Source of the DNA: Natronohydrobacter sp.
GTDB taxonomy: Bacteria; Pseudomonadota; Alphaproteobacteria; Rhodobacterales; Rhodobacteraceae
Direction of reading: 5' to 3'
Assembly (NCBI GenBank): GCA_020832585.1
Contig: JAFIEL010000006.1
Location: 1-58,306 of the forward strand
Length of the DNA: 58,306 nt
In this document: positions 25,038 to 47,232 of the stretch, one piece after another
How the letters are laid out: every line of letters begins with the position of its first letter
Numbering within the stretch: the first letter of the stretch is position 1
Program-made: the position numbers and the translations under genes
The notes under the pieces: generated by a model
What the model saw: the letters and a program-made list of their open reading frames with translations, nothing else
What the model was told of the DNA's origin: nothing
The model's database searches: none

Positions 25038-25697
25038 ATGGGTATTTGTAAGCCGTTTTTTCGTAACGACACTGCATCTTTGCAGACATGCACACGGGCG
25101 GGCATCCGGTTCGCGGCAGGCGTTGCGCTTGCTGTCGGGCTTGGTGCCTGCCAGATGGCCTCGCAGGGGGCGCAGGGCAGCCGCACCGAACTGGCAGAGG
25201 CCTTGTCGGAATACCGGATCGTGCCTGCCGGGCGCGCTTTCGTCACGGTTCCGAACGCGCTTCTGGTCATGGAGCGGGATCTGGGTGTCGCGATCGAGCA
25301 GCGTATCACCTTGCCAAACACAACCGCGCTGGCAGGCGAGAACATCATTCAGTTGCGCGCGCAGACCAGCCGCTCCTCCAGCGTGACACGACTGCAACTG
25401 ACCGAAGTTCTCGCGCAATTTGGCGGCGTCCCTGCGCCTTTCAGGGCGCTGGACGAGTCTTCGCTGAGTTCCGTCACCGACCAATATGGTGACATGACAT
25501 ATACCGTCGCCCGCCCTGGGGGAGATGTGACCTGTGTGCTGGCCTTTCGCCGGTCGCGCATCGGCGCGCGCGCCCTGCCGCGCGGGTCGTCGGCGCTTGA
25601 TATGATGATGCGCAACTGCGTGACAGGATCGGTTCAGGATGCGCTTGCCCCATTGGGGCCGCAAGCCTTCTCGCTGGGTGTGGCGCGATCAGGTTGA
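25038..25697 (+). CDS. bcsN: Cellulose biosynthesis protein BcsN (lipoprotein)
   Basis: First gene of the cellulose operon, 219 residues. A signal segment ends in V-G-L-G-A-C, a lipobox, so the mature protein is probably an outer-membrane or periplasmic lipoprotein. The rest matches my recollection of BcsN from Agrobacterium/Rhizobium: a Y-R-I-V-P-A-G-R segment, L-P-N-T-T-A-L-A-G-E-N and a C-terminal half with two Cys (D-V-T-C and R-N-C). It is 22 bases before bcsA. I chose ATG 25038; ATG 25020 is in frame and cannot be excluded. The biochemical role of BcsN is not established. Confidence 0.75.
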   Translation: MGICKPFFRNDTASLQTCTRAGIRFAAGVALAVGLGACQMASQGAQGSRTELAEALSEYRIVPAGRAFVTVPNALLVMERDLGVAIEQRITLPNTTALAGENIIQLRAQTSRSSSVTRLQLTEVLAQFGGVPAPFRALDESSLSSVTDQYGDMTYTVARPGGDVTCVLAFRRSRIGARALPRGSSALDMMMRNCVTGSVQDALAPLGPQAFSLGVARSG

Positions 25698-25719
25698 TTT
25701 CAGAAAAAGGTTTGTGGCT

Positions 25720-28152
25720 ATGAGTATTCTGATTGCGACACGAAAACTGCGGGTTGGTGAAATCGGTTTGTTCCTGCTCTGGGCAGCTCTGGTTATACCG
25801 CTTGCCATTCTGGCCAGTATTCCGACCTCGACCGCAGTGCAGGGGGCGCTGGGTCTGTTTGCCGTTCTGACCGTGGCGGTGCTCAAGCCCTTCACGATGA
25901 AGAACATCATGGTGCGTTTCGCGCTTCTGGCGGTCGCGAGTGCCATCGTTATGCGCTACTGGTTCTGGCGGGCGACGGAAACCTTGCCACCGCTTGACAA
26001 TCCGCTTTCCTTCGCGATCGCGCTGGCCCTTTTCGTTGTCGAAACCTACGCGATCTTTGTCTTTTTCATCAGTTCCTTCATCACCGCCGACCCGATCAGC
26101 CGGACCTTGCCTCCCAAGGTGGCCGCCGCTGACCTGCCGACGGTCGATATTCTGGTGCCCAGTTATAACGAACCGACCGAAATGCTTGCCGTCACGTTGT
26201 CGGCGGCCAAGAACATGCATTATCCTGCCCACAAGCGCACGGTGGTCCTGTGCGATGACGGCGGGACGGACCAGCGCTGCAATCACGAAGACCCCGCGAT
26301 TTCCGAGAAAGCGCGCAAGCGCCGTGCAGAGTTGCAGAATCTGTGCGCGGAACTGGGGATCGTCTATTCGACACGTCCGAAGAATGAACATGCCAAGGCC
26401 GGGAACATGTCCGCCGCGCTGGAGCGGTTGAATGGCGATCTGGTGGTGGTTTTCGATGCAGACCATGTGCCCAGTCGCGACTTTCTGGCGCGGACCGTCG
26501 GATATTTCGTGGAAGACCCCAAGCTGTTTCTTGTGCAGACGCCGCATTTCTTTCTCAATCCTGATCCGGTCGAACGCAATGTCGGCTTTCGTTCGGATTG
26601 CCCGCCTGAAAATGAAATGTTCTATCATCTGGGCCATCGCGGGCTTGACCGCTGGGGTGGGGCCTTTTTCTGTGGCTCTGCGGCCTTGCTGCGGCGCGCG
26701 GCGCTGGACGATGTGGGTGGTTTCGCGGGCGAGACCATCACCGAGGATGCCGAGACGGCGCTGGAGATTCACAGCCGGGGCTGGAAAAGCCTCTATGTCG
26801 ATCACGCGATGATCGCGGGCTTGCAGCCTGAAACCTTCGTGTCCTTTATCGAGCAGCGTGGTCGTTGGGCAGCGGGCATGATGCAGCTTTTGCGCCTGAA
26901 AAATCCGTTGCGCCGCAAGGGCATGAGCCTGACACAGCGCCTGTGTTATCTCAATTCGATGACCTTCTGGCTGTTTCCGCTGGTGCGTATGGTCTTCTTG
27001 CTGGCACCACTGGCCTATCTGTTCTTCGGGATGCAGATCTTCGTGGCGACCATTGAAGAAGTGATGGTCTATATGGGCGCCTATATGGCGGTCAGTTTCA
27101 TGGTGCAGAACGCGCTCTATGCACGGGTACGTTGGCCGCTGATGTCGGAGATCTATGAGACAGCACAGGCGCCTTATCTGTCGGGGGTGGTGATAAAGAC
27201 CCTGTTCAAGCCACGCGGCGCGAAGTTCAACGTGACCGCCAAGGACGAGGTTCTGGAGGAAGATTACATTTCGCCGCTTTTCAAGCCGCTTCTGGCGCTA
27301 TGGGTGATCTGCGCTCTGGGCGTTGTGGCTGCAGGTATTCGCTGGGCGCTGTTTCCAGGGGATCATACGATCCTGATGGTCGTCGGTGGCTGGGCCGTGT
27401 TCAATTTCATCATCCTCTCGGCCTCTTTGCGGGCTATTGCCGAACGCCAGCAGCGGCGTGGTGTGCCGCGGGTCGCAATGAAAGTGCCGGCAGTTGCAGC
27501 CATCGGGAGCCAGAACAAATTCAGCTTCACGGCGGCGACCATACTGAACTCGTCAACCAGCGGTGCAAGATTGAAGCTGGTCGGCGGCCCCGAGACGGAC
27601 GCGGCCGAACTGGCCGCCATCGCGCCGGGCTATGTGCTCTATTTCACGCCGGAATTCCCCAGATCTCCACATCTGGAAAACGCCGTGCGCGTGCAGGTCA
27701 AGAATGTCGAGCGCACCAATTCCGGGGTCATCGTTGGCGTGCGCTATGACCCTGATCAACCCATGCAGTCGCGTGAGACAATCGCGCATCTGATCTTTGG
27801 TGACAGTGCGAACTGGGAACTTGTCCGCGCGGGCAAGAACAAGCCCATGCCGATGCTCAGGGGCATGGCGTATATCGTCACTCTGGCCTTTACCTCTGTG
27901 TATCATACGATGCGCGCGCTGGCCGCAGAGCCTGCGCGCAGACGGGCCGCAGAGGAACGCGCCCGCATGAGCGAGATCAGGGAGCTTGAGCCTGCGCATA
28001 TGCTGGCTTTCGGCGAAGTCTTTGACCCGGAAATCACCAATCCCGATTTCTCTTTCGAACAATACGGGTCCGGTGTTCCGGGGATGAAAGGGTTTCTGAC
28101 CGCCAATCGTCAGGCGCAAATCCTTGCGCGCGGACTGGAGGTGAAGTCATGA
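25720..28152 (+). CDS. bcsA: Cellulose synthase catalytic subunit (UDP-forming)
   Basis: Inner-membrane processive glycosyltransferase (GT2) that polymerises UDP-glucose and extrudes cellulose, 810 residues. Catalytic marks are L-C-D-D-G, F-D-A-D-H, T-E-D-A-E and Q-R-G-R-W (the Q-x-x-R-W motif). Membrane helices flank the catalytic domain. A PilZ domain follows (about residue 590 on) with R-x-x-x-R as R-G-V-P-R and N-x-S-x-x-G as N-S-S-T-S-G, so c-di-GMP should activate the enzyme as shown for the R. sphaeroides protein. ATG 25720 has AAAGG upstream. The stop overlaps bcsB as ATGA. Confidence 0.95.
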   Translation: MSILIATRKLRVGEIGLFLLWAALVIPLAILASIPTSTAVQGALGLFAVLTVAVLKPFTMKNIMVRFALLAVASAIVMRYWFWRATETLPPLDNPLSFAIALALFVVETYAIFVFFISSFITADPISRTLPPKVAAADLPTVDILVPSYNEPTEMLAVTLSAAKNMHYPAHKRTVVLCDDGGTDQRCNHEDPAISEKARKRRAELQNLCAELGIVYSTRPKNEHAKAGNMSAALERLNGDLVVVFDADHVPSRDFLARTVGYFVEDPKLFLVQTPHFFLNPDPVERNVGFRSDCPPENEMFYHLGHRGLDRWGGAFFCGSAALLRRAALDDVGGFAGETITEDAETALEIHSRGWKSLYVDHAMIAGLQPETFVSFIEQRGRWAAGMMQLLRLKNPLRRKGMSLTQRLCYLNSMTFWLFPLVRMVFLLAPLAYLFFGMQIFVATIEEVMVYMGAYMAVSFMVQNALYARVRWPLMSEIYETAQAPYLSGVVIKTLFKPRGAKFNVTAKDEVLEEDYISPLFKPLLALWVICALGVVAAGIRWALFPGDHTILMVVGGWAVFNFIILSASLRAIAERQQRRGVPRVAMKVPAVAAIGSQNKFSFTAATILNSSTSGARLKLVGGPETDAAELAAIAPGYVLYFTPEFPRSPHLENAVRVQVKNVERTNSGVIVGVRYDPDQPMQSRETIAHLIFGDSANWELVRAGKNKPMPMLRGMAYIVTLAFTSVYHTMRALAAEPARRRAAEERARMSEIRELEPAHMLAFGEVFDPEITNPDFSFEQYGSGVPGMKGFLTANRQAQILARGLEVKS

Positions 28153-30443
28153 GCCGGACAAACCTGAAACAGCAGACCGGTCCTGCAATGCCACGCGCGC
28201 ATGCGCGCCGCGCGGGTGCTGCGCTGATGGGGTGTGTGCTTGCCTTTGTCATGCAGACGATACCGACGATGGCGCAAACGGTCTCTGACAGTCTGATCCC
28301 GCTGCCGGAAGTGACCGCGCTCGATCTGCCCGACAGCGTTTCGCCGGTTGATCTGTCAGAACGTTTTGATCCCGCCCGCCGTATCGTCGCTGACATAGAG
28401 GCCAACGATCCTGATCGACAGCTGTGGATTTCGCCGCTGCGCTTGCTGGATCTCGGATATCCGATGCGCAACAGCGTCACACGCATATCGGGCGAACGCG
28501 AATGGGTTGATTTCGATGTCTATGCAAGTGCTGCAGCCGACCAGCAGATCCTGCGCCTGTCGACGGTTTCGGGCATCAACAACCTGCCGGAACGGTCCTA
28601 CCTTCGCGTGTCGTTGAATGGCACGGATCTCGGGCGGCGCAATCTGGTGCATGTCGAATCCTTCGGCGCGATTGACTTTGTGCTGCCGCCAGATCTGCTG
28701 TTGCCGGGGCGCAATCAGGTGCAGATCGAGTTGCGCCAGCATCACCGGATCTATTGCGGACCCGAAGCGTCGTTTGATTTGTGGACAGATATCGACCTTG
28801 CGAAAAGTGGTCTGGTGATCCACCGGGATTTCGAGTCCGTCGGGGTCGAGACATTCCTGATGGGTCTGGCCGCGCAGGCGACCGGGGTGCGTCCGGTCGA
28901 GATTCGCGGGCTGGAAAATCTGGGAAGCGAGGCGGACACCTGGCGGCAGTTCCTTGTTGGCCGACTTAATCAGGTGCTTTCAGGGGCACCAGTGGTGTTC
29001 CGTTTCGAAGATTACTGGACCGCCGAGAGTGCTGGCCCTGCGCATGCGCGCATCACGATCATGCCCGCCGCGCAAAGCCGTATGCGATTTGTCATCGGTG
29101 GTGACGGCGCGATCGTCATGGTTCTGGATGTCGCGCAGGGCACCCGCCCCGAGGACTTGCTGGCTGCGATTCCGCAATTCGACAGACGCTACCAGAATAT
29201 TCGTGCGCCACTGGTAATGCCGGAGCACGCCACCACTTTCGCGGATCTCGGTGCGCAAACAGAAGAGTTCTCGCAGCATTATGCCACGCGGAATCATTTT
29301 TTCAGGCTGCCGAATGACTGGCTTGTGCTGACGGCCGCCAAGGCGCGGATCCAGCTTGACTATGCCTTTGCCGCCAACTTGCCCGAAGGGGCCATGTTGC
29401 TCCTGAGTGTAAATGGAACCTCGATCCGTCTGTTGCCACTCTGGCGCGGGGGCGGGGCGCAGATCGAAGCCTTTCCGATCGATTTCGAAGCGCGTCTGAT
29501 GCATCCGGGGACAAATGTGTTGACCTTCCAGATGTTCGTGCCGGGCAATCCCGCCGATCTGCCCTGCCCGTCAGGGGAGAGCCCGGTGCTTCAGATTTCC
29601 GAAACCTCGACCCTGCATGTGCCCTACAGTCCGTCAATGGTCATTCCGGATATGGATCTGGCCTTTGCCACGCTTGGCGCGGACAGTCTGCGCAAGAACG
29701 AGTTGAGCGCGCGGGCCTATTCAGAAATGGATATCCTGACGCTTTCGGCCGCGCTGAGCCGGTCGCGCGAGGCCGAATATCCGTCGATCCTGCATCTGAT
29801 CGCGATTGATGATCTGGCCTCGATCCCGACGGGCCATCACCGCGCGGACCGTCGCTTGCTGGAGAATACGGTGCTGAGCCGACCAGAGGAAGCTCTGTTG
29901 CTTGCACAGAATGCTGCAACCACGCCGCAGGACCCGTTCATGGCGCGGCGCCCATCATCGCAACCTGTCGCTGCGATGCTGAACGCGGGCTGGACCGAGG
30001 TTGTCGGCAAGGCACAATGGCTGCGCGATAGGGTATTCCCCCATAGCGGCGATCAACTCAACGCCTGGCTGGCCGAACAGCAAGGACATGCGGTCCTGTT
30101 CCAGCTTGACCCTGACCGCCCGAGCGAAATCTGGATGCTGCGCAGTCCCGAGAGCGATATCCACACGATCGCCCTTGCCATCGCGAGCGCGCGCGCATTC
30201 GGAGGGGGGCCAAAGGGGCAGGTTTCGGTCCTGACCCAAGAGGGCCACTGGAACAACTGGTTCGCGCCTGATCGCCAGCCGATTTTGCTGGAACCCTGGT
30301 CGCGGCAGAACTTCCGCGCGGCGATGGGTAACTTCGTTTCCGCCCGCCCGATCTTCTACACCATCCTGATGCTGGGGATTGCCCTGCTATCGGCGCTGGT
30401 CGCGCTGCGACTGGTTATCTCGACACGGGAGCACAAGACATGA
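28149..30443 (+). CDS. bcsB: Cellulose synthase periplasmic subunit BcsB
   Basis: Partner of BcsA, 764 residues: a signal segment (about 20-43), a long beta-rich periplasmic part that guides the glucan, and one C-terminal membrane helix (I-L-M-L-G-I-A-L-L-S-A-L-V-A-L) that packs on BcsA. Regions such as L-S-V-N-G and L-R-V-S-L-N-G-T-D-L-G are carbohydrate-binding-like strands typical of the family. Length matches R. sphaeroides BcsB. ATGA overlaps on both sides (with bcsA and bcsZ) show tight coupling. Confidence 0.92.
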   Translation: MSRTNLKQQTGPAMPRAHARRAGAALMGCVLAFVMQTIPTMAQTVSDSLIPLPEVTALDLPDSVSPVDLSERFDPARRIVADIEANDPDRQLWISPLRLLDLGYPMRNSVTRISGEREWVDFDVYASAAADQQILRLSTVSGINNLPERSYLRVSLNGTDLGRRNLVHVESFGAIDFVLPPDLLLPGRNQVQIELRQHHRIYCGPEASFDLWTDIDLAKSGLVIHRDFESVGVETFLMGLAAQATGVRPVEIRGLENLGSEADTWRQFLVGRLNQVLSGAPVVFRFEDYWTAESAGPAHARITIMPAAQSRMRFVIGGDGAIVMVLDVAQGTRPEDLLAAIPQFDRRYQNIRAPLVMPEHATTFADLGAQTEEFSQHYATRNHFFRLPNDWLVLTAAKARIQLDYAFAANLPEGAMLLLSVNGTSIRLLPLWRGGGAQIEAFPIDFEARLMHPGTNVLTFQMFVPGNPADLPCPSGESPVLQISETSTLHVPYSPSMVIPDMDLAFATLGADSLRKNELSARAYSEMDILTLSAALSRSREAEYPSILHLIAIDDLASIPTGHHRADRRLLENTVLSRPEEALLLAQNAATTPQDPFMARRPSSQPVAAMLNAGWTEVVGKAQWLRDRVFPHSGDQLNAWLAEQQGHAVLFQLDPDRPSEIWMLRSPESDIHTIALAIASARAFGGGPKGQVSVLTQEGHWNNWFAPDRQPILLEPWSRQNFRAAMGNFVSARPIFYTILMLGIALLSALVALRLVISTREHKT

Positions 30444-31516
30444 AGCGACGAGATTTTCTGATCACGGCTCCCACGTTCAGCGCAATGATGCTGTCCATGC
30501 CTGCGCAGGCCGCCTTGCAGGGCGATCTGGCACAAACCGGGCGTGCGGTCTGGGAAAGCTGGAAATCGGCGTTCCTGTCCTCTGACGGGCGTGTGATTGA
30601 TGGATTGCAACAACAGTCCAGCCATTCCGAAGGGCAGGGCTATGGCATGTTCCTGGCCACCGTCTTTGACGATGCCGCCAGTTTCCGCCAGATGTTCCAA
30701 TGGACCGAGCGCCATCTCGCCGTGCGCTCCGATGCCCTGCTGGCCTGGCGTTGGCTGCCGGGACAGGCCAATCCGGTGCCTGACCGCAACAATGCCTCGG
30801 ACGGTGATCTGTTTTATGCCTGGGCGCTGGTGCGCGCGGCCGCGCGGTTTCGGGATCGCAGCTATCTCGAGCGCGCGCAAGAGATCGCGGCGGCGCTGGC
30901 AGCCACATGTATCTTGCCGATGCCGGGACGCAGTGATCAGCTTGTTTTCCTGCCTGCAACCTTCGGCTTCCAGCATGACTCGCATCTGTCGGTGAACCCG
31001 TCTTACTACATGCCCCTTGCAATGCGTGAGGTTGCGGCGGCGACCGGCACGCCTGCGCTGGCCGCCTGCGCGCAATCCGGCGAGACGCTGATGCATGAGA
31101 TCGCGCGCGATGGGCTGGTGCCAGACTGGATCGATGTCGCGCCATCCGGGGTGCGCGCGTCCGAGACCCTTTCGGCCAATGCCGGGTATGAGGCGCTGCG
31201 CGTGCCCTTGTTCCTGATCTGGTCGCGCGTGCCCGATCATATGGCTGTGCGGCGCATGGCAGCGGTCTATGAGCGCACTGTCCAGCCGGGCGTGGCGGTT
31301 CCGACCGTGATCGAACCCTTGTCCGGGGTTGTGCTCGAAAGCAGCGCCGATCCTGGCTATCAGGCACTTGCTGGGCTGACGGTCTGTTCCAGCCAGCGCG
31401 CACTTGGGGCCACGATTCCACCTTTTTCTTCCAACCAGCCCTATTACCCCGCAACCCTGCAGCTTTTCGCGATGGTTGCCGTTCACGAAACCCTGCCCGA
31501 ATGTGTGCCCCTATGA
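30440..31516 (+). CDS. bcsZ: Endoglucanase of glycoside hydrolase family 8 (BcsZ)
   Basis: Periplasmic beta-1,4-glucanase of 358 residues found in most cellulose operons and needed for normal polymer yield. The N-terminus M-K-R-R-D-F-L plus a hydrophobic stretch ending A-Q-A looks like a Tat-type signal. The general acid Glu is in S-H-S-E-G-Q-G-Y-G-M and the catalytic Asp in N-N-A-S-D-G-D-L-F-Y-A-W. N-P-S-Y-Y-M-P is a further family motif. It is coupled to bcsB and to the TPR gene by ATGA overlaps. A Tat signal on this enzyme is notable because E. coli BcsZ uses Sec. Confidence 0.9.
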   Translation: MKRRDFLITAPTFSAMMLSMPAQAALQGDLAQTGRAVWESWKSAFLSSDGRVIDGLQQQSSHSEGQGYGMFLATVFDDAASFRQMFQWTERHLAVRSDALLAWRWLPGQANPVPDRNNASDGDLFYAWALVRAAARFRDRSYLERAQEIAAALAATCILPMPGRSDQLVFLPATFGFQHDSHLSVNPSYYMPLAMREVAAATGTPALAACAQSGETLMHEIARDGLVPDWIDVAPSGVRASETLSANAGYEALRVPLFLIWSRVPDHMAVRRMAAVYERTVQPGVAVPTVIEPLSGVVLESSADPGYQALAGLTVCSSQRALGATIPPFSSNQPYYPATLQLFAMVAVHETLPECVPL

Positions 31517-32922
31517 CGATGACTGGTTCTTTGCCCAAAGCGCTGAGTGTCTTTTTCCTCGCCCTGACCTTGGGCACCGTCGGGGCGTTGGCGCAGACGG
31601 CTGCACATGACGATCTGCGTGCACTGCGCTATTATCTGCAGCAGAATGATCAGGCGGCAGCACAGGCAGAGTTGCGGCGTTTGCGCGTGGCCTTTCCGGA
31701 TTGGCGTCCACCTGCCAATCTCAATGACCTGCTGTCGGTCGAGGCGACGGCAAGCGTTGATGAAGGCGCGATCTGGCGTCTGATCGAACGGCGCGATTAT
31801 GCAGGCGCGCGGCAGTTGATTGAACAGGGTCGCGGCCGCGTTGCTGGCTGGACACCGCCTTCCGATCTTCTGCGGGTTCTCGAAACCAACGAGGCGCAGG
31901 ACAATTTCAGTGCTGCTGTTTCCGCCCGCGACGCGACACGGGCGATTTCGATTGCGCGCGGAGCGCCGCAACTGATGAGTTGCGACCGGATCAACAATGC
32001 CTGGTTGCTGGCAGATATGTATATCCTGTCGGGTCAGAACGGGCTGGCCCTCACCACCTATCGCAACACGGTGCAGTCCTGCCCGACCTATGACCAGATG
32101 CAGACCACACTGGAGAAATCTTCGGCCATCGCGTCGCAGTCGGAATTGCGCGATCTTTTCGTGCTGGCACGTCGCACCAATGCAGGCGCAAAGGGGCAGC
32201 TTGATCAGCTTGAAGCGCGCCTCCTGGGTGGTGCGCGCGCGCCGGTCGCTAACACGGCCGCGGCAGCGCCTGCACGTTCAGCCCCGACACCTGCACCCGC
32301 TGCGGCGGCAGTTCCGGTTGCACCGGTTTCTGCCGGGTCAGCGCAGGGCGCATTGCCCTTGCGCGGCGACGGTCGCATTTCAGAAGTGCGGCGCCTGAAG
32401 GAACAGGAACAATACGCCCGTTGTCTGGCGGCGTCGCAATCGCCGCGCTCGCTGGATGTGCTCTATGAGCGGTCTTGGTGTGCCTATGGCAACCAGCGCC
32501 CGACAGAAGCGCTGGTCGGGTTTCAGGCAGCCGCGCAGGCAGGCGATTCGCTGGGTGCGAATGTGCGCCGCGATGCGCATTTCGGAATGGCACTGGCCTA
32601 TCTGTCGATGAACATGACCGAGCAAGGCGCGGCGACTGCCGCGCAGGTGCGCCTGACCGACACGCAGCACCGGGAAATCGAGACCATTGTGCTGGATCAA
32701 CGCGGGGTGCGGGCCTATCGCGCGGGTGATTTCCGTCAGGCCATCGGATATTTCGACACGCTTGAGCGGGTCAGTGGTTCCTTGCGTCGGGATCTGGCGA
32801 TCTTGCGGGCCTATGCCTATCTCAACACCGGCCAGCGCCCGACGGCGCGGGCTGAATTCGAGCGTCTTCATTCACAACTTGCCACCGCCGAGACCCGGCA
32901 GGGATTGAACGCCGCGCGCTAG
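31513..32922 (+). CDS. TPR-repeat periplasmic protein of the cellulose operon
   Basis: The 469-residue product has a signal peptide (hydrophobic core V-F-F-L-A-L-T-L-G, cleavage near A-L-A-Q) and helical repeats of TPR type in two blocks (about 30-235 and 290-460). They are separated by an Ala/Pro-rich linker (about 240-285). It takes the place of bcsC in the operon but ends without the outer-membrane beta-barrel, so it cannot be a full BcsC. It may act as a periplasmic scaffold between BcsB and a separate pore. The start ATG overlaps the bcsZ stop. No enzyme motif is seen. Confidence 0.8.
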   Translation: MTMTGSLPKALSVFFLALTLGTVGALAQTAAHDDLRALRYYLQQNDQAAAQAELRRLRVAFPDWRPPANLNDLLSVEATASVDEGAIWRLIERRDYAGARQLIEQGRGRVAGWTPPSDLLRVLETNEAQDNFSAAVSARDATRAISIARGAPQLMSCDRINNAWLLADMYILSGQNGLALTTYRNTVQSCPTYDQMQTTLEKSSAIASQSELRDLFVLARRTNAGAKGQLDQLEARLLGGARAPVANTAAAAPARSAPTPAPAAAAVPVAPVSAGSAQGALPLRGDGRISEVRRLKEQEQYARCLAASQSPRSLDVLYERSWCAYGNQRPTEALVGFQAAAQAGDSLGANVRRDAHFGMALAYLSMNMTEQGAATAAQVRLTDTQHREIETIVLDQRGVRAYRAGDFRQAIGYFDTLERVSGSLRRDLAILRAYAYLNTGQRPTARAEFERLHSQLATAETRQGLNAAR

Positions 32923-33229
32923 CGGTCAGGCCCCTCTGACTTTTTCCTGTTCGATTGAAGGGCGCGCGCCAACGGCACGCGTCCTTTTCAATCGTGTCGG
33001 TGAATCGTGCAAAATATTGATAAATAGAAATTATTATCGTTCTGATCATGTCCGCCTTGGGCCTTGTTATCCGATAACACACCGCCTGCAATCGCATAGC
33101 GCGCCCCTGATATTGCGTGGCGGGACACAGCAGCGGCAGGTTTGGCTTAGCGGATCACCCGCCACACACCATCACCACCGGGACAGCCCCGACATCACAC
33201 ACCAACTCAGATCAACAGGAGTTCCTGAC
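32923..33229. promoter_or_regulatory. Gap between cellulose and curli genes with GATAA/TTATC sites
   Basis: An imperfect hairpin (32952-32994, end arms cgattga/tcaatcg) may end the cellulose operon. Beyond it lies AT-rich sequence with GATAA (33019-33023), TTATC (33034-33038) and a 15-bp palindrome TGTTATC-C-GATAACA (33065-33079). The palindrome sits 150 bases before the curlin start and looks like a LacI/GntR-type operator. AGGAG at 33217-33221 is the ribosome site of the curlin gene. Confidence 0.5.
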
Positions 33230-33673
33230 ATGACCTTTTCCTTCACCAACACCCTGACCGGTTCCGCTCTGGCACTTGTGCTCGCCCTTGTGTCCTTGCC
33301 GGCAGATGCCGGATCGAACCGTGTCTTCGTGGATCAATGGGGCCGCGATAACGGGGCCGCTGTCGCCCAGACCGGCCATCGCCAGCGTGTCTCGATCACG
33401 CAGAGCGGTCGCGGCAATCTGTCGCTGAACACGCAGGACGGTGCGCGCAACCGCGTTGTCGTTGGCCAGGTCGGTTGCAACAATGTGGCCGATACTGCGC
33501 AAGGCGGGCGGCGCAATATTGTGGGCGTGTCGCAGATTGGTTGCCGCAATGATGCGACCGTGACCCAGAGCGGCCATCGCAATGCGGTCGGTGTCATCCA
33601 GACCGGCAATGGCAACACCGCCAACGCGACACAGCACGGCAATGGCAATGTGGTCCTGATCATCCAGGACTGA
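33230..33673 (+). CDS. Curlin-repeat amyloid subunit (CsgA/CsgB-like), first copy
   Basis: Secreted amyloid protein of 147 residues. A signal peptide (about 1-25, ending A-D-A-G) is followed by nine or ten strand-turn units of 11 residues with the pattern x5-Q-x-G-x-x-N, for example V-S-I-T-Q-S-G-R-G-N and A-V-G-V-I-Q-T-G-N-G-N. Two Cys occur exactly 22 residues apart, at the same place of the repeat (V-G-C-N-N and I-G-C-R-N). The start has AGGAG 8 bases upstream. It begins a three-gene curli set. CsgA or CsgB cannot be told apart from sequence alone. Confidence 0.88.
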   Translation: MTFSFTNTLTGSALALVLALVSLPADAGSNRVFVDQWGRDNGAAVAQTGHRQRVSITQSGRGNLSLNTQDGARNRVVVGQVGCNNVADTAQGGRRNIVGVSQIGCRNDATVTQSGHRNAVGVIQTGNGNTANATQHGNGNVVLIIQD

Positions 33674-39256: not shown

Positions 39257-40345
39257 TCAGGTGGTTTGCAACAGCGCTTCTGTAGTGGGCTTCCTGCCTT
39301 CGATTGCTGCGATAACCTCGGCACAAATCGCCCATGTCGGTCGGTCAGAGGACAGGATGATCGCATCGTAATCCGGGCGCTGTTCGCGCTGATTGCGCCG
39401 CAGGGCCGCGTCAAAGCCGACAGAGCCGCGTTTGTGCCCGATCGAATTGCGCGCCGCCAGTCGATCCGCGATCACGCGGTCCGGGGCGGTCAGATGGATA
39501 ACCTGCCGAAAGTCATTGCGATAGGGCGCCACAGCCGCCCCGAAACCGCCAATGACAAAGACCGCCGCTTTTTGCCGGCGCGCTGCAGTGAAACAGGCAT
39601 GCGCGCGCGCCTGTGGCCAAAGCCAGCGGATTTCGCTTTCACCCTCTGGGAAGGCGCGCAGCAGGTCATACCGGACATCGCTGAACCGCCGCCCAAGGCA
39701 GAAACTGGCGATTTCGGTATCGGCATCGATAATCGGATAGCCTATGGCTTGCAAAAAATGCCCAAGGGTCGATTTCCCGGTGCCGTTATTGCCAGAGACA
39801 AGGTAGAGCCCCGCGGGCAGCCGGGCCGGAGGCTTGCGCAGCATCTGGACACCCGCGCGCGCCATATGCTTGCGCAATCTGTCAGCCTGCATGCCAAGAA
39901 ACGCTTGTGCGCCGTCCTGCTGCCCGCTCTGGCGCAGACAGGCCAATCTGCGCAGGATAGCGTAGGATCCTGCAACCCGGTGCTGGTCAAGCAGGCTCTG
40001 CCAAGCCTGTCCTGCCAGATGATATTCCCTGGCCAGCATCGCGATTTCGGCTTGCATGCGTCGTAACGCCAGATCACCCGGCCAGAGGTCCAGCGCGGCC
40101 TGCAACTGGCGCAGCGCTTCGGGATAGGCGCGACAGCGCATCTGCATCTGGGCCCGCATCAACGCGATTTCGGGCTTGGGGCCACGCGCCATCATGCGGT
40201 CAAGATAGACCACTGCCGCGCGAAAATCGCCGCGCTTCAAACGCCCCTTTAGCGCCTTGTCCAGTCCGGGTTGATCCAGCATGGCGGCCTGCGCGCAGTG
40301 CCATGTCAGATCACGGTCTGGCAAGGGTCTGGCCTGATCCGGCAT
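39257..40345 (-). CDS. TPR/P-loop kinase-like protein
   Basis: Unrecognised family of 362 residues. The N-terminal half is helical with TPR-like spacing (A-L-R-Q-L-Q-A-A-L-D-L-W-P-G-D-L-A near residue 75-95). A P-loop domain follows from about residue 178 with Walker A S-G-N-N-G-T-G-K-S-T-L. It then has a kinase-like D-A-D-T-E-I motif (about 210) and R-V-I-A-D-R-L-A-A-R-N near residue 290, resembling small-molecule kinases such as shikimate or gluconate kinases. The start has AAGGGG upstream. It is divergent to the sulfotransferase/glycosyltransferase pair, separated by about 140 bases, so a shared surface-glycan function is possible. The substrate is unknown. Confidence 0.6.
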   Translation of the reverse strand: MPDQARPLPDRDLTWHCAQAAMLDQPGLDKALKGRLKRGDFRAAVVYLDRMMARGPKPEIALMRAQMQMRCRAYPEALRQLQAALDLWPGDLALRRMQAEIAMLAREYHLAGQAWQSLLDQHRVAGSYAILRRLACLRQSGQQDGAQAFLGMQADRLRKHMARAGVQMLRKPPARLPAGLYLVSGNNGTGKSTLGHFLQAIGYPIIDADTEIASFCLGRRFSDVRYDLLRAFPEGESEIRWLWPQARAHACFTAARRQKAAVFVIGGFGAAVAPYRNDFRQVIHLTAPDRVIADRLAARNSIGHKRGSVGFDAALRRNQREQRPDYDAIILSSDRPTWAICAEVIAAIEGRKPTTEALLQTT

Positions 40346-40488
40346 CCATCTGCCCCTTCGATTGCTGACCTCACCCTAGCCCTGACAGGTTGCCAAATCG
40401 CTAATTCCTGCGGCTGGTCGGTATAAACCATGCGTTAATCAAACTGCGCGACAAGAGAAGCCTGGCGGCAGAAGCGGGGCGCGTGAGG

Positions 40489-41178
40489 ATGGACGAATTC
40501 AAACACCCGGAAGGCGGTTATGTGTTCATCGTGACCTATGGGCGTTCGGGCTCGACGCTTCTGCAGAACCTGCTGAACGCGATCCCCGGATACCAGATTC
40601 GCGGCGAGAACAACAACGCGCTCTTCGGTCTGTTCAAGAGCTGGCGGTCCATCGCAATCAGCCCCGATATTGCCCGGATGCGCCGCGAAGGGACCAGATC
40701 GGACGCCACGCATCCGTGGTTCGGGGCTGAAGACATAGATGCGGACGCCTATCGCGCAGCGCTGTGCGCGGCGTTTTCGCGTCTGATCCTGCGCCCCGAT
40801 CCCGCTATGCGAGTCAGCGGGTTCAAGGAAATCCGCACCATCGCCGATCCAGAGCTTTTCGCGGCCTATCTTGGCTTCCTGCAAGATGGATTCCCCAACG
40901 CCCGACTGGTGTTCAACACGCGTGATCCTGATGCCGTGTGCCGGTCTTCCTGGTGGCGCAAGCATGATCCGCAACAGGTCAAGGCGATGATCCATGCCGC
41001 CGAATCGGTCTTTCGGGCGCATGTGGCAACCCATCCCGCGCGTGCAGTCTTGCTGCATCATGACGACTATGTGGCCGATCATGCCGCGCTGGAGCCGCTC
41101 TTTGCCTTGCTGGGTGCATCACCTGCACCAGAGGCTTTGTGCCGCGTGATGCAGACAAGGCTTACCCATGCCACATGA
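40489..41178 (+). CDS. Sulfotransferase family protein
   Basis: PAPS-dependent sulfotransferase-like protein of about 229 residues. The 5'-phosphosulfate loop is T-Y-G-R-S-G-S-T-L-L near residue 17, and the 3'-phosphate segment appears as R-D-P-D-A-V-C-R-S-S-W-W near 150. In between lies V-S-G-F-K-E-I-R. ATG 40489 was chosen over GTG 40483; neither has a clear site. The last 11 bases overlap the start of the giant glycosyltransferase, so the two are co-translated. It likely sulfates a glycan or lipid-linked sugar made by its partner. Several sulfotransferase-like enzymes use other acceptors, so the substrate is inference. Confidence 0.8.
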   Translation: MDEFKHPEGGYVFIVTYGRSGSTLLQNLLNAIPGYQIRGENNNALFGLFKSWRSIAISPDIARMRREGTRSDATHPWFGAEDIDADAYRAALCAAFSRLILRPDPAMRVSGFKEIRTIADPELFAAYLGFLQDGFPNARLVFNTRDPDAVCRSSWWRKHDPQQVKAMIHAAESVFRAHVATHPARAVLLHHDDYVADHAALEPLFALLGASPAPEALCRVMQTRLTHAT

Positions 41179-44100
41179 CACAGTTCTTACCCCGAAAGGC
41201 GCCGCAAGGATGCAGATGACCAAAGGCCCCGAATGTCCAGATGAATTGCGCGCGCAGGCCGGAGCGCTGGCTTTGTCCGGACCCGTCACATTGTGGCTGG
41301 AATTCGATCTGCGTGCGCAGGCCATCGTCAATCTGGATTTCCGCAATCATGCGCAGGACATGATCCCGCTGCATTTGTCCTTGCGCCGCGATACGGGTCG
41401 GATCGTCGCGAATCGCTGGTGCGCCAAAGGCTGGCGCCGAGAGGTCAGTTTTGCAGCGCCGCTACAGCGGGCAACGCATGTGATGCAACTGGCGTTGCGC
41501 CGGGGGCTGGGTCGGGGCTGGTGCGTCGAGCTTTCGCTTGACGGTCGCCCGCTGGGCACACTCGATGCGCTGCCGCGCCCTGACCCTCAAGGCCGTCTGG
41601 GTCTGCGGCGCGGTTTTCCCGGTCTTGGTGACATCGGGGCGGTCACATGGCCCGAGGGCTTGCGCTGTTTGCGCATGTTGCCGGGGTCTGGGGTGGGTGA
41701 TTTGCACCTGAACGCACGGATGGAACTGATTCTGCGCGATGCGCGCACAGAGACCGTGCTTGATTGTGGTGACGACATGCCCGCGCGCCCTTTCATTCCC
41801 CTGCAATCTGGTGCGGGCGGCTGCAGTGCCGCCCTAGTGCCGGGCTGGGTCTGGAGCGGGCGCGATGGAACGGATGTGATGCTTTTGGCGCGCGACCGCA
41901 CCGGCCATGTGATTGCGCGCCGCAAGCTGACCAAGGCGCATATTCTGGACCTGCTGGACCAGCCAGAGGTGCTTTGGCAGCTACGCCATGACACGGTGGC
42001 GCGGTTGCAGATGCTGGAGCATGTGCATTTCGCCCACCTCTGGCCGAGCGTGCCGCCAGAGGCAAGGAAATTGCTGGCGCAAGAGGCGCAACGCCACCCA
42101 AAGGCCGGGTTTATGCCCCCGCCAGAGGTGGACTTGCCTTGTGTCGCCCGCCCAATGCGGACACCAGCCGCTACGGCCTGTGACGCGTTTCATCGCAGCC
42201 GTTCCATGCCCCGCCAGCCTGATCCTGTCACCCAATTGCGCAGTCTGGTTCGCAGTGAAAAGCTTGATCCCGACCAGACACGCCTGCTTGGATTGCTGCT
42301 GTCTGAATGGTTTTGCCTGCACAGTGATCCATATGCGCTGGCGCAAGCCTTGCAGGATCTGGGCGTGCAGGATTGGACTGGTATTCGGGATGCCTGGGGA
42401 GAGATTGCGGCCCTGCCATTGCTCTGGGCTTCTGGTGACTGGCACGCCTGTCTGAAAACCCTGAAATCCGCGCGGAAATCGCGGCCTGACTGGCTTGTGA
42501 CCCCGGCGCTTGGATGGCTTGGCGCGGCTTTGGCCCGAGATATGCCCGACCTTGCAGGCAACCGACCCGATATGGCGCAGCGGGTAGCCATGTCACTTGC
42601 ACTGCTTGAATTGATCGCTGATCTGGCCCCCGCCTATATGTCGCAAACGGGGTGCCTTCGCCTGATTTCCGGCGTGCAGGAATTGCTCGCCGCAAGCCAT
42701 GCAATGCCGGATTGGTGCCAGCCGCGATTTGTCGATCTGGCCTTGCAAGCCTATGGGCTGAATATGGATTTCTGGCGACGCAACCCAGCGCGGCTGCCTG
42801 CATCCCTGCTGCCGTGGCGCGCCGCTTTCGCCGGTTTGCACGCAGCGGCAATGACAGGCGACTGGCAGGCGCTGGGCCGCAGGGCCCGTCCGTTTCTGAG
42901 CAGGCCTATTGCTGGCTCCGAGACCCTGCGCCGTCTCGCGCTCTCGACGCCGGCGATGGTTTGCGATGAAACGGGCCTGCCAGATATGCATGCATTGACT
43001 GGTTTCGCCGCCCCCCGACAAGCCGAGGAAGCGGCGCTGCGCTGGCTGGCCTATCCGCGCGGCGACGCAACCAAGGCAGCGCTGCCGCTGGACACGGCGA
43101 CACCCGTTCACCGCGCGGCTGTGACTGCGATGGACATGGCCACGCCAGAAGTCGGACGGCCACCAATGTCGCGCGCGCAACGCCATATGGGTCGCCTTGT
43201 GCAAACGATGCTTGGGGTGCTGCGCAGCGGTGCGCCTGTGTCGCGCGCCCAGTTGCTCGAGAGTGTGACCGCCGCGCGCGGCTTGCTTCGGCCTGAGGCA
43301 GGGTTTCTGGGAGTTGCCGCATTACTGGCGCTGGCCGAGGCTCTGGCACGCACTGGCTATCCCAAGGCCGCACGGACCTGTATCACCCTGGTAACGGAAG
43401 CTGCGGCACGTCAGGGCCCGGAACGTATGCAGGCTGTTTCGGCGGTTCCGCTTGCCCTTGCCCGTTTCGACGCGCTCTGCCCTGATCCGGCCTTGCGCAC
43501 GGTGCTGGATGCGTGCCTGCCCCATGACCCGCGACTGCAACCCGGCCCTGCACAGGACCCACGGGCTGCAGCACTGCGCGCAACGGCCAATCCTTTCGCA
43601 GATACAATCGTTGCATTGATTTCCTGTCACGCCAATCTGGCCAGCCGCCTGCCCGAGATACAGGCGGCATGGGGCGATCGGCTGGCGGAATGGGGGATTC
43701 CGCTGATTGTGGTGACAGGTCGCAGCGCCGGGCAGGTGCCGGGCGCAGGACCACGTTTCGATGGAAAGCATCTGCAGCTTGACGCGCCCGACGATTACGA
43801 AGGTCTGCCGCAAAAATCCCTTGCTCTGGCCGAGTGGGTGCTGGAACAGACCGGTTTTTCGCGCGTCTACAAGATAGATGATGACTGTTTTCTCGACGTG
43901 GAAAGCTTCTTTTCCGACCCGGCATTTCTGACATCGCCCTATTACGGGCGGCCATTGCACCGTGCCGAGGGCGAGATGGATCGCGCCTGGCATATGGGGC
44001 GTGCACAAAACCCCCGCGGGCGTCATGAACTGGACAAATCGCCAGAGCCTTCGCGCTATGCGGATGGTGGGTCAGGATATGTGCTGAACCGACAGGCACT

Positions 44101-45502
44101 TGCCAGGTTGTGCGCGACGCGACGGACGCCGCATGGGCGCGCGCTGGAGCAGATGTCCTTTATGGAGGACAAGCTTGTGGGCGACCTGTTGGCCCAGTCG
44201 GGGATCGAGGTTGCCGGGCCAGGGTACGATATCGCGATCTTTCGTCAATCCGCACCCGGTCTGCCGCCATTGCCTCAGTATCATAGCGGTTTCCTGCCCT
44301 TTGCCGGTGGGCAGATAAAGCTGGCGCATCTGGATTCCGCAGGGGCGCAGAGCGCGGCACGGGATGCGGCGGGCTCGCCCTGGCCGATGCCTATGAAGGT
44401 CTGGCCCTGCCACCGCCCCGCCGTGCTGGGATGGGCGCAGCATGGTCTGTCGCTGGTCAGCCCGCCCGAAAGGCTGGAACAGGCGAAAGTCGCCGGTGTG
44501 GCGGTGATTTCTGTCATGCGCAACGAGCGATTCGTTCTGGATCATTTCCTCGCGCATTATCGCCGTCTGGGTGTGGGGGCGTTCCTGATTGTCGATAACG
44601 GCTCTGATGACGGGACGCTGGAACATCTGGTCGCGCAGCCCGATGTGTCGGTTTTCACGACCGATACGCCTTATCGTCAGTCGGCCTATGGTGTGATGTG
44701 GCAGGAAGCGTTGATGGCACATTTCCGGTTGGGACGCTGGTCACTTCTGGCCGATGCGGATGAACTGGCTTTCTGGACCTTGCCGGATGCCGCAGGCCTT
44801 GTGCAGGCCGATCTGTCGCAATTGCTGCGCAGCGCCGATTTTCAGGCGTGCGAGGCCGTGCGGCTGCTGATGTTCGACCTTTATCCGAAGGGTCCGCTAT
44901 CGGCTGCGCACTTCCGGCAGTCGCCTTTTCTGGAGGCAAGTCATGTTGATCGTGAGCCATTCCTGAAAGAATGGCAAGGACGCGGGCCGTGGTCGAACAG
45001 CAAGACCCTGACCAGCGCGTTGCGTCACCGTCTGATGACGGAAGCGGGCATGCCAGCCCGTGCCAATCTGTTCGTGGCCCAGAAATTCGCCCTGCTGCGC
45101 TATCACCCGTTCATGCAACTGTCGACAGGCCTGCATTACATTGCCGGGGCCAAGGTCGCGGCGCGTGATCTGGCTTTCGCCCATTTCAAATATCATGCCG
45201 AATTTCATGCGAAGGCCCGGCGCGAAGCCGCGCGGGGGCAGCATTTCAACAATGCAGAGGAATATCGCAACTATCTGGCTTTGCAAGCCGAGGGGCGTGA
45301 CGTCCTCTACCGGCCGGGCGTATCGGTGCCGCTGGCGGCCTGTGCGCATCTGCGCCGGATTTGTGGTCTGCCAGAGGCCCCGGATTTCGTTGCGCTTCGG
45401 ACAGGCATCCCGCCGGTCATGGTCAGGCGGGTGCCGCGCCGTCAGGCATATCCCTTGTCCGTGGCGATGCCCGTGCAATCTGCCGAAATCAGGGTGTCCT
45501 GA
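41168..45502 (+). CDS. Giant multidomain glycosyltransferase: galectin-like, GT31-like and GT2-type domains
   Basis: Protein of 1444 residues without signal peptide. Residues about 35-180 look like a galectin fold: P-L-H-L-S-L-R, then I-V-A-N-R-W and G-W-R-R-E-V, corresponding to the H-x-N-x-R, V-x-N and W-x-x-E sugar contacts. A long helical part follows (about 280-800). A GT31-like domain spans about 813-1060 with L-Q-L-D-A-P-D-D-Y, the metal motif Y-K-I-D-D-D-C-F, Y-A-D-G-G-S-G-Y-V-L and E-D-K-L-V-G. A GT2-type domain (about 1110-1370) has S-V-M-R-N-E, V-D-N-G-S-D-D-G and A-D-A-D-E. Two active sites imply it adds two sugars. It overlaps the sulfotransferase by 11 bases and converges on the FAD oxidoreductase with a 14-base overlap. 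Product unknown. Confidence 0.8.
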   Translation: MPHDTVLTPKGAARMQMTKGPECPDELRAQAGALALSGPVTLWLEFDLRAQAIVNLDFRNHAQDMIPLHLSLRRDTGRIVANRWCAKGWRREVSFAAPLQRATHVMQLALRRGLGRGWCVELSLDGRPLGTLDALPRPDPQGRLGLRRGFPGLGDIGAVTWPEGLRCLRMLPGSGVGDLHLNARMELILRDARTETVLDCGDDMPARPFIPLQSGAGGCSAALVPGWVWSGRDGTDVMLLARDRTGHVIARRKLTKAHILDLLDQPEVLWQLRHDTVARLQMLEHVHFAHLWPSVPPEARKLLAQEAQRHPKAGFMPPPEVDLPCVARPMRTPAATACDAFHRSRSMPRQPDPVTQLRSLVRSEKLDPDQTRLLGLLLSEWFCLHSDPYALAQALQDLGVQDWTGIRDAWGEIAALPLLWASGDWHACLKTLKSARKSRPDWLVTPALGWLGAALARDMPDLAGNRPDMAQRVAMSLALLELIADLAPAYMSQTGCLRLISGVQELLAASHAMPDWCQPRFVDLALQAYGLNMDFWRRNPARLPASLLPWRAAFAGLHAAAMTGDWQALGRRARPFLSRPIAGSETLRRLALSTPAMVCDETGLPDMHALTGFAAPRQAEEAALRWLAYPRGDATKAALPLDTATPVHRAAVTAMDMATPEVGRPPMSRAQRHMGRLVQTMLGVLRSGAPVSRAQLLESVTAARGLLRPEAGFLGVAALLALAEALARTGYPKAARTCITLVTEAAARQGPERMQAVSAVPLALARFDALCPDPALRTVLDACLPHDPRLQPGPAQDPRAAALRATANPFADTIVALISCHANLASRLPEIQAAWGDRLAEWGIPLIVVTGRSAGQVPGAGPRFDGKHLQLDAPDDYEGLPQKSLALAEWVLEQTGFSRVYKIDDDCFLDVESFFSDPAFLTSPYYGRPLHRAEGEMDRAWHMGRAQNPRGRHELDKSPEPSRYADGGSGYVLNRQALARLCATRRTPHGRALEQMSFMEDKLVGDLLAQSGIEVAGPGYDIAIFRQSAPGLPPLPQYHSGFLPFAGGQIKLAHLDSAGAQSAARDAAGSPWPMPMKVWPCHRPAVLGWAQHGLSLVSPPERLEQAKVAGVAVISVMRNERFVLDHFLAHYRRLGVGAFLIVDNGSDDGTLEHLVAQPDVSVFTTDTPYRQSAYGVMWQEALMAHFRLGRWSLLADADELAFWTLPDAAGLVQADLSQLLRSADFQACEAVRLLMFDLYPKGPLSAAHFRQSPFLEASHVDREPFLKEWQGRGPWSNSKTLTSALRHRLMTEAGMPARANLFVAQKFALLRYHPFMQLSTGLHYIAGAKVAARDLAFAHFKYHAEFHAKARREAARGQHFNNAEEYRNYLALQAEGRDVLYRPGVSVPLAACAHLRRICGLPEAPDFVALRTGIPPVMVRRVPRRQAYPLSVAMPVQSAEIRVS

Positions 45503-46520
45503 GGCGGAACTCCTCAGGGATGGTATCTTGCCCGTCAAGCACCAGATCGGCCATGATTGCAGCCAGTGCAGGCGCCATGGCAAAGCCGATCTTGAAGCCG
45601 CCATTGAACACGAAATGCCCCGCGCGCCCCGGCCATGCGCCCATCAGGGGCGCGCGGCTCTTGGCGCGTGGACGCACCCCGGCCCAGCGGCTGATCTCTG
45701 GCGCATCCCGCAGGGCAGGGCAGATCATCCTTGCCTGTGCCACCAGCATGTCGCAGCTTTCATCCGTGCTGCCGGGATCATCAAACGCGCGCTCGGTCGT
45801 CGATCCGATGGCCACCGTCCCGTCAGCATGGGGCACGATATGCAGCCCATCGGCGAAAATCTGTGGCGCATTCGGGCAGGACAGGGCAAGCGCCACGGAC
45901 TGGCCCTTGACGCCAGCGCCCATATCCGTGCCAAGATCACGCGACAAGTCCTGCAGCCCTTCATAGCCTGTGGCCCAGACGGTTGTGCCCATTGGGGGGG
46001 TGTCGCCTGTCTCGATCACCACGCCCAGCTTTGCTAGCGCGCCCACCAGTGCAGCACCCGCCTTGCGCGGATGCAGCCGCGCGCTGAGCGTGTCATGCAC
46101 CACCCAGCCCGAAGGTGAAACAAGCGGCAGGCCAGGGGCATCGTCGGCGCGCAAGACCTGCCATTGCGCGAAGCCCTGCCACAACTCGCGCGCCTGTGCG
46201 GCGCGAGCATGGGCCAGATCAAGCTTGTCGGCGGCCAGGGTTTGCACGCGCCCCAGCCGTGCATACCCCGGATCAAGACCGGAACAGGTGGCGACGCCGT
46301 CCCAGAACGCACCAGCAAGGCGCAGCGCTTCGAACTGAAACGCTTTCTTGGTGTTCCAGTTTTCCGGCACATGCGGTGCCAGCGCACCCACCAGCCCCCC
46401 GCTGGACCCTGCGCCGGGGGTGCGTTTCTCGATCACCCGCACGCGGGCCCCGCGCTGTGCGCAGCTATAGGCCAGTGCCAGACCGAAGATGCCTGCGCCC
46501 ATGATCGTCAGATCGGCCAT
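45489..46520 (-). CDS. FAD-dependent oxidoreductase, MnmC C-terminal-like
   Basis: Flavoenzyme of 343 residues with the dinucleotide motif G-A-G-I-F-G-L-A near the N-terminus, an E-K-R-T acidic end of beta-2 and a C-terminal F-N-G-G-F-K-I-G-F-A closing motif. It belongs to the DAO family. The gene is divergent to mnmD, and in E. coli MnmC the two activities are fused, so this is probably the oxidase that turns cmnm5(s2)U34 into nm5(s2)U34. The start at 46520 is set by AGGGGA on the minus strand; the next Met upstream is too close to that site. A D-amino-acid or glycine oxidase is the alternative. Confidence 0.75.
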   Translation of the reverse strand: MADLTIMGAGIFGLALAYSCAQRGARVRVIEKRTPGAGSSGGLVGALAPHVPENWNTKKAFQFEALRLAGAFWDGVATCSGLDPGYARLGRVQTLAADKLDLAHARAAQARELWQGFAQWQVLRADDAPGLPLVSPSGWVVHDTLSARLHPRKAGAALVGALAKLGVVIETGDTPPMGTTVWATGYEGLQDLSRDLGTDMGAGVKGQSVALALSCPNAPQIFADGLHIVPHADGTVAIGSTTERAFDDPGSTDESCDMLVAQARMICPALRDAPEISRWAGVRPRAKSRAPLMGAWPGRAGHFVFNGGFKIGFAMAPALAAIMADLVLDGQDTIPEEFRLRTP

Positions 46521-46578
46521 TGTCATTTCCCCTGCGCCGCGACACAACTGCTGAACATGTGACATAAAGCAGAGCGCG

Positions 46579-47232
46579 ATGCAGAACCAGCTGGCAGAAT
46601 TGGCGTGGCGGGACGACCACATCCCGGTTTCGACCCGGTTCGACGACCCTTATTTTTCGTTGCAAAGTGGTCTGCAGGAAACGCGCCATGTCTTCTTGCG
46701 CGGCAACGGTCTGCCAGAGCGCGCGCGTCCGGGCTTCCATATTGCCGAACTGGGTTTTGGCACCGGGCTGAACCTGCTGGCCACTGCGTCCGCCGTGACC
46801 CAAGGCCCTGTGCGCTATACCAGTTTCGAGGCGTTTCCGATGGCACCCGATGACATGGCGCGCGCTTTGTCGGCGTTTCCCGAACTGGACGCTGCAGCGC
46901 TGATCGCGGCATGGATGCAGGGTGCGCGGCAGTTCACGCTGGGGGCGCTTGTGGTCGAAATCATCGTGGGGGATGCGCGCGACACATTGCCGGATTGGCA
47001 GGGCAGGGCGGATGCGTGGTATCTCGACGGGTTTTCCCCGGCCAAGAACCCGGAACTCTGGTCGGACATGTTGATGGCGCAGGTGGCGGCCCATACCGCC
47101 CCCGGCGGCACGTTCGCGACCTATACGGCAGCAGGCCATGTGCGGCGGGCCTTGTCAGATGCGGGCTTTGCTGTCACGCGCGCCCCCGGCTTTGGGCGCA
47201 AGCGACATATGAGCCAGGGGGTCATGGCATGA
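46579..47232 (+). CDS. mnmD: tRNA 5-methylaminomethyl-2-thiouridine methyltransferase MnmD
   Basis: SAM-dependent enzyme of 217 residues that methylates nm5(s2)U34 in the wobble position of tRNAs. Family marks are S-x-R-F-D-D-P-Y-F near residue 19, the SAM motif E-L-G-F-G-T-G-L-N near 57 and Y-L-D-G-F-S-P-A-K-N-P near 149. The gene faces away from the FAD oxidoreductase, with 58 bases for a shared promoter, and overlaps the next gene by ATGA. Together the two divergent genes replace the fused E. coli MnmC. Confidence 0.88.
   Translation: MQNQLAELAWRDDHIPVSTRFDDPYFSLQSGLQETRHVFLRGNGLPERARPGFHIAELGFGTGLNLLATASAVTQGPVRYTSFEAFPMAPDDMARALSAFPELDAAALIAAWMQGARQFTLGALVVEIIVGDARDTLPDWQGRADAWYLDGFSPAKNPELWSDMLMAQVAAHTAPGGTFATYTAAGHVRRALSDAGFAVTRAPGFGRKRHMSQGVMA

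Follow-up and report, generated by a model that had tools for sequence, protein, structure and literature searches.

The stretch from position 1 to 58,306 of contig JAFIEL010000006.1 of Natronohydrobacter sp. (assembly GCA_020832585.1), referred to here in its entirety as the window, carries a gene whose 1444-amino-acid product joins a predicted galectin fold, a GT31-type glycosyltransferase domain and a second glycosyltransferase domain of the GT2 type in one polypeptide. The host is a bacterium with kinship to soda-lake species. A first-pass annotation had singled out this open reading frame (ORF), which was found exactly as claimed, and since 9 of the 15 loci detected in a search of contigs (L001–L008 and L013) align with it nearly end to end, covering at least residues 81–1396 at 34–78% identity, it is a real gene. 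The three domain assignments proposed there hold by sequence profile, those of the galectin-like and GT31 domains are also backed by predicted structure, homologues with the same domain order were found, and the motifs that had been picked out (HLSLR, VANR and WRRE; KIDDDCF; EDKLVG) proved to be conserved positions across the protein family. It is, in our estimate, an even question whether the protein is a cytoplasmic glycosyltransferase of several modules, making part of a surface polysaccharide that is probably sulfated, with the galectin-like domain holding a galactose-type chain. The features of the gene, all on the forward strand, are as follows (AF2, AlphaFold2).

41168–45502, forward strand: main gene, 1444 amino acids, ATG start; galectin-like domain, unassigned middle, GT31-type domain and GT2 domain (PF13704)
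41267–41662, forward strand: predicted galectin-like beta-sandwich, residues ~34–165 (PF00337, PDB galectin profile, AF2/Foldseek)
41372–41443, forward strand: putative sugar-binding core, H69-x-S71-x-R73...N82...W89-x-x-E92 (23-sequence alignment)
41750–43537, forward strand: middle region, residues ~195–790, with a weak TPR_14 signal
43580–44392, forward strand: predicted GT31-type glycosyltransferase domain, residues ~805–1075 (PF01762, B3GalT profile, AF2/Foldseek)
43877–43885, forward strand: DDD motif, residues 904–906, presumed metal/nucleotide-sugar site, present in 23/23 members
44165–44170, forward strand: E-D motif, residues 1000–1001, present in 23/23 members
44495–45292, forward strand: C-terminal GT2 domain (PF13704, Glyco_tranf_2_4), E 3.9e-21, found in 14/14 C-terminal pieces

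Pfam analysis of the whole protein placed PF13704 at residues 1118–1201 (E 3.9e-21), PF01762 at residues 869–1015 (E 6.3e-5; 23.3 bits, cut-off 23) and PF00337 at residues 55–101 (E 0.038), the last with 13.9 bits and thus short of its cut-off of 22.1, and NCBIfam gave no match for the whole 1444-residue protein or for its pieces. The isolated N-terminal domain also stayed under the PF00337 cut-off (E 0.0019, 18.1 bits), and a single-sequence phmmer search of the PDB with it reached a galectin only weakly, at E 0.016. On one sequence the lectin call is therefore marginal, and it is secure only through evidence at the level of the family. PF00337 matched 10 of 11 N-terminal domains of the family at E <= 1 (best 3.8e-6). 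When these 11 domains, which share 17–75% identity with that of the window, were aligned, the resulting profile, containing no eukaryotic sequence, found a Toxascaris galectin as its top PDB match at E 2.8e-12, and 59 of its 60 PDB matches at E <= 10 were galectins or galectin-like, the exception being 3wnp at E 1.6. An AF2 model computed from the same 11-sequence alignment showed a beta-strand fold (predicted local distance difference test, pLDDT, 84.5) and retrieved 272 chains with Foldseek at E <= 0.001, with probability 1.00 and template-modelling (TM) scores of 0.54–0.64 by query length. Going by their titles, the best 50 of these 272 chains are galectins or GRIFIN, apart from 6h64 (‘CRD-SAT’), which has an uninformative title; chicken GRIFIN holds the top two rows (best E 3.1e-7). 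Furthermore, two relatives, L052 and L066, have galectin domains that score above the PF00337 cut-off by themselves. Against this evidence, the idea that the resemblance is that of a generic beta-sandwich and not of a galectin, to which the weak single-sequence scores might lead, is very improbable. An unrelated beta-sandwich, the outcome which would have spoken against the first-pass reading, is nearly excluded by the family-profile match and the galectin-fold rows, and so is a chance one, the contrasting profile of the middle region (residues 300–800 aligned) giving no PDB match below E 0.15. On sequence profiles and the model together, the N-terminus is predicted to have the galectin fold. 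The middle region itself yielded only TPR_14 at E 0.0049, below the Pfam cut-off.

Six residues of the window domain, H69, S71, R73, N82, W89 and E92, presumably correspond to H44, N46, R48, N61, W68 and E71 of galectin-1. In an alignment of 23 members, which omits L015 (no galectin domain) as well as L004 and L009–L011 (cut by contig ends), the galectin-1-numbered positions are kept as follows: H44 in 23/23, R48 in 22/23, N61 in 22/23, W68 in 23/23 and E71 in 21/23. Five residues of the galectin binding-site set of seven (H, N, R, N, W, E, R) are thus retained, and in the 11-sequence alignment they rank among the most conserved positions of the N-terminal domain. The serine at the N46 position is shared with the N-terminal carbohydrate-recognition domain of the Toxascaris leonina galectin (HISVR in the profile alignment), of which a W77F/W212F mutant with bound glucose, 8zqi, was among the Foldseek rows. 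Judged by its residues, the putative binding site is mostly kept, and its specificity is not readable from them.

At E <= 1, the 14 C-terminal pieces of the family matched PF13704 in all cases, PF01762 in 12 (best 3.1e-13) and, weakly, Fringe in three. The profile of the GT31 domain recognized B3GalT6 (6.3e-8) and B3GalT5 (9.1e-5) in the PDB and nothing else at E <= 1, and that of the GT2 domain found no significant relative among the solved structures (best 0.074). The E-D motif of the former is presumably the catalytic-base region, by analogy with GT31 enzymes, and the DxD of the GT2 domain at residues 1196–1198 is present in all 23 members. In an AF2 model of the GT31 and GT2 piece (pLDDT 81.4, predicted TM score 0.65), the leading Foldseek matches were CHSY3-CHPF1, LARGE1, B3GalT6, the lysyl hydroxylase LH3 and C1GalT1. 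The transferase core resembles GT31 enzymes by profile (B3GalT6, B3GalT5) and by fold (B3GalT6, C1GalT1), at 21% identity with B3GalT6 and 17% with C1GalT1 over the Foldseek alignment; the solved chains differ in being single animal transferases. The chondroitin synthase CHSY3-CHPF1 and the bacterial synthases K4CP and heparosan synthase 2, which were among the Foldseek rows for this piece, carry two transferase modules per chain, as does the window protein, but since the root-mean-square deviation (rmsd) over both domains is near 20 Å or more, only the idea of two modules is common to it and synthases of the CHSY3-CHPF1 type, and a chondroitin-synthase-like geometry was dropped. Both domains are predicted transferases, the GT31-type domain with intact acidic motifs by profile and model, and the GT2 domain with an intact DxD by sequence.

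The contig search found its closest locus in Natronohydrobacter, at 78% identity. Among genomes of the host's own taxonomic family, 254 of 295 matched the protein; among the matches listed, at least eight (own genome included) extend from residue 220 or earlier to residue 1387 or later, and nearly all others involve the C-terminal GT2 domain only, with G216 also matching in the GT31 part. When 256 genomes of this taxonomic family were searched with profiles, the galectin profile was found in 11 and the GT31 profile in 11, ten being common to both. In each of these ten the two domains share a contig, and in all but G216, where the copy is fragmented into several frames, they share an open frame as well. 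Outside the shared ten, G207 has a galectin stretch at a contig end, and G152 was found with the GT31 profile but not with the galectin profile. In a sample of the class, the galectin profile was found in 3 of 385 genomes and PF01762 in two, the one above the cut-off being the host genome. PF00337 used directly (E <= 0.001) found neither the host genome (0/1) nor more than 1 of 398 genomes in a sample of the phylum; a direct search thus misses nearly all of the protein family, and surveys based on Pfam would overlook it. As 14 control genomes gave no PF00337 or PF01762 match either, these counts do not show absence.

The layout of the protein varies. Six relatives (L052, L055, L057, L062, L063 and L064) carry an extra N-terminal GT2 domain in frames or genes of 1797–2054 amino acids. 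The galectin domain passes the Pfam cut-off in L052 (28.3 bits), falls short of it in L057 and L063, and goes unreported by Pfam in L055, L062 and L064; with the family profile, L055, L057 and L062–L064 score 3.3e-7 to 1.1e-18. In L066 (Thalassococcus) all three domains are above the Pfam cut-offs, and L015 has the GT31-GT2 part without a galectin domain. The earlier view of a new bacterial fusion with a second transferase attached was right as to its existence, but the window protein is no single oddity: it belongs to a patchy family of several layouts. Two divergent frames were also noted. In L077 (G162), a 717-residue frame begins with a galectin-like part and ends with a GT31-type one, with no PF13704-like part by eye; in L079 (G152), a 733-residue frame looks GT2-like by eye at its start, matches GT31 partially near its end and has no galectin match, so that the transferase modules may stand in reverse order. 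Separately, the record with the L012 homologue is titled Bordetella petrii, a species with ~65% G+C; the 18-kb locus has 51%, which is low for it, and the record name may be wrong.

Part of the family is plasmid-borne. The protein matched 20 of 72,556 plasmid records. Five of these reach best-place coverages of 41–94% (Tropicibacter 94%, two Sulfitobacter 79% and 76%, Palleronia 74%, Thalassococcus 41%), and the remaining 15 records matched in the C-terminal part only. In the five, the gene is labelled glycosyltransferase or glycosyltransferase family 2 protein. Not all copies are on plasmids, as those of G135 and L015 sit on contigs of 1.5–2.1 Mb. None of 50,697 phage records matched the main protein, and a phage origin is unsupported.

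In the mechanism that we propose, the protein would be cytoplasmic (no obvious signal peptide was seen by eye) and its GT31-type and GT2 domains would each transfer one sugar, so that a single chain could be extended by two sugars in succession, the two domains presumably acting alternately as it grows. Relatives with the extra N-terminal GT2 domain might be three-sugar synthases. The galectin-like domain would bind a galactose-type residue of the chain or acceptor and so keep the chain near both active sites. The product would be modified by the sulfotransferase encoded next to the main gene and carried out by a capsule-type ABC exporter, whose genes lie near 8 of 24 loci and on other contigs in the host, to end as a surface polysaccharide. 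The gene directly upstream is the following.

40483–41178, forward strand: sulfotransferase gene (PF13469, E 4.5e-14), its last 11 bases shared with the main-gene start

The sulfotransferase and main genes are possibly translationally coupled. In the window, as in all seven close relatives with upstream DNA, the main gene is immediately preceded by a sulfotransferase gene. We compared 24 main-gene loci with flanks of differing length, namely the window, L001–L003, L005–L008, L012–L015, L052–L058 and five plasmid loci; a sulfotransferase gene was present within ~4 kb in 18 of them, and with the queries used none was found at L012, L013 and L054–L057. The eight loci with KpsE/KpsM-like genes nearby were detected by tblastn (L052, L055, L057 and, with KpsM only, L056) or by annotation (L062, L064, L065 and L066). 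The genes on the Tropicibacter plasmid matched TIGR01010 (BexC/CtrB/KpsE) at 5.5e-68 and KpsM at 3.6e-26, both below the NCBIfam cut-offs. A UDP-galactopyranose mutase gene is close to 5 of the 24 loci, and rfb rhamnose genes are present on three of the five plasmids opened. In the host genome, KpsT/E/M-like genes lie together on another contig, C13, with the same GT4-type partner transferase.

Several observations weigh against this mechanism. The position of galectin-1 R73 holds arginine in only 2 of 23 members and is lost in 21, N46 is replaced in all 23 (by serine in 22 and glutamate in one), E71 is lost in two, R or N is missing at core positions in two, and L013 and the Palleronia copy each lack two further core residues; sugar binding may thus be weak, altered or absent. 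GRIFIN, the top Foldseek match, is a galectin-fold protein that does not bind sugar in mammals, and since L015 has no galectin domain, the lectin is not indispensable. These same points (the R73 and N46 positions, the two GRIFIN rows, the depleted copies and L015) would fit a galectin-like domain that serves as a structural or protein-docking module, for dimerization or contact with the transferases, its sugar binding gone. We consider such a role rather unlikely, because H44, R48, N61, W68 and E71 are kept in 21–23 of 23 members although identity to the window domain falls to 17–22%, and because the retained positions are among the most conserved of the domain. On the structural side, many Foldseek rows spanning the GT31 and GT2 domains superpose poorly (rmsd near 20 Å), and the AF2 models are of pieces built on shallow alignments of 11 and 14 rows. 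As to export, no exporter gene was detected near the main gene in the window, L001–L003 and L005–L008, where the sulfotransferase is present, nor nearby at L012–L015, L053, L054 and L058, so that for the window gene the link to a capsule depends on relatives further removed and on a different contig.

With the sulfotransferase as the only glycan-related gene directly beside it in the window, the enzyme might instead glycosylate a protein or the core of a lipooligosaccharide, with no polymer made. Its structure matches include the protein glycosyltransferases C1GalT1 and SunS, and the plant enzymes that combine galectin and GT31 domains have protein acceptors (PMC4687291). The KpsM/E-like export genes at 8 of 24 loci, and the rhamnose or UDP-galactopyranose mutase genes at some, argue for a polymer, and we hold a non-polymeric product to be improbable. 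Synthesis of a surface polysaccharide thus remains the reading that we propose.

Other genes of the window were noted in passing. Beyond the main gene, a DAO oxidoreductase gene on the reverse strand and a Methyltransf_30 gene on the forward strand are divergent and overlap (45489–47232); in MnmC these domains usually form a single protein, and the pair looks like a split MnmC. Both genes also adjoin the main gene in several relatives. On the other side, a reverse-strand gene at 39257–40345 has TPR-like and AAA_18 kinase-like matches and also stands beside the sulfotransferase gene in L001–L003 and L005–L007. At 25639–33673, cellulose-synthase-type genes (a BcsA-like glycosyltransferase with PilZ, BcsB, GH8 and a TPR protein) are followed by a gene for a curlin-repeat protein.

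The nearest precedent is provided by the plant galectin-GT31 enzymes. GALT1–GALT6 of Arabidopsis are described as beta-1,3- and hydroxyproline-O-galactosyltransferases that, like the window protein, unite PF00337 and PF01762 in a single chain (PMC4687291, PMC5225481), and the plant enzymes, one of them of 681 amino acids, as predicted type II Golgi membrane proteins acting on protein (PMC4687291). The first-pass annotation had cited as precedent both plant enzymes and related animal ones; the former stand, whereas in animals galectin and GT31 domains are reported to lie in separate genes (PMC5225481). The window protein differs in having ~640 residues between the galectin and GT31 domains, an added GT2 domain and an adjoining sulfotransferase gene; a spacer of that length exceeds the room in the 681-residue plant enzyme, and the layouts differ. 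At 1444 residues the window protein lies outside the plant GALT pattern of fewer than 700 amino acids and no second transferase, to which the divergent 717-residue frame of L077 is nearer in size. The plasmid loci also recall the Rhodobacterales ‘biofilm plasmids’: three of the five opened combine rfb genes with replication initiator A and genes for capsule-type export, and a Sulfitobacter study describes rfbABCD plasmids with glycosyltransferases (PMC13386836). The window differs from such rhamnose-operon plasmids, as no such operon was found among its 20 ORFs scanned, and its neighbours include accA. In titles and opening parts of abstracts from the open-licence literature, no bacterial galectin-transferase fusion appeared among the matches listed.

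A second bacterial group was found in another family of the same class. In two of its genomes, frames of 1223 and 1282 amino acids (L050 and L051) combine PF00337 (2.6e-9 and 1.7e-7) with GT2 and GT25 domains; a galectin domain was found in two of the four genomes searched in that family, and PF00337 scores these domains better than does the profile of the window family. A domain from the same family, L048, matched galectins in the PDB at 4.1e-6, with the viral fibre protein 2wsu, which we take to carry galectin domains, as the top row (1.7e-8); ankyrin/DARPin chains were also returned, mostly without a significant stretch. L050 and L051 share with the window protein the fusion of a bacterial galectin domain to several transferases, but differ in transferase families and layout. 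The window family's fusion may have arisen by transfer or by convergence, the two origins named in the first-pass annotation; we incline to the view that transferases recruited galectin modules more than once. Somewhat more tentatively than the proposed mechanism itself, we suggest that bacteria own working galectins as intracellular chain-holding modules of polysaccharide synthases, and that these were joined to transferases at least twice, with GT31 and GT2 in the Rhodobacterales and with GT2 and GT25 in the other family, independently of the land-plant fusion.

Galectins have mostly been regarded as animal, fungal and plant lectins. A bacterial galectin-GT31 family with a mostly kept putative binding site, borne in part on plasmids beside surface-polysaccharide genes, widens this picture. 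In bacteria, polysaccharide synthesis may be steered by galectin domains, and the family, whose bacterial enzyme is likely to be easier to express, provides transferases tethered to a lectin and perhaps new polymers that carry sulfate.

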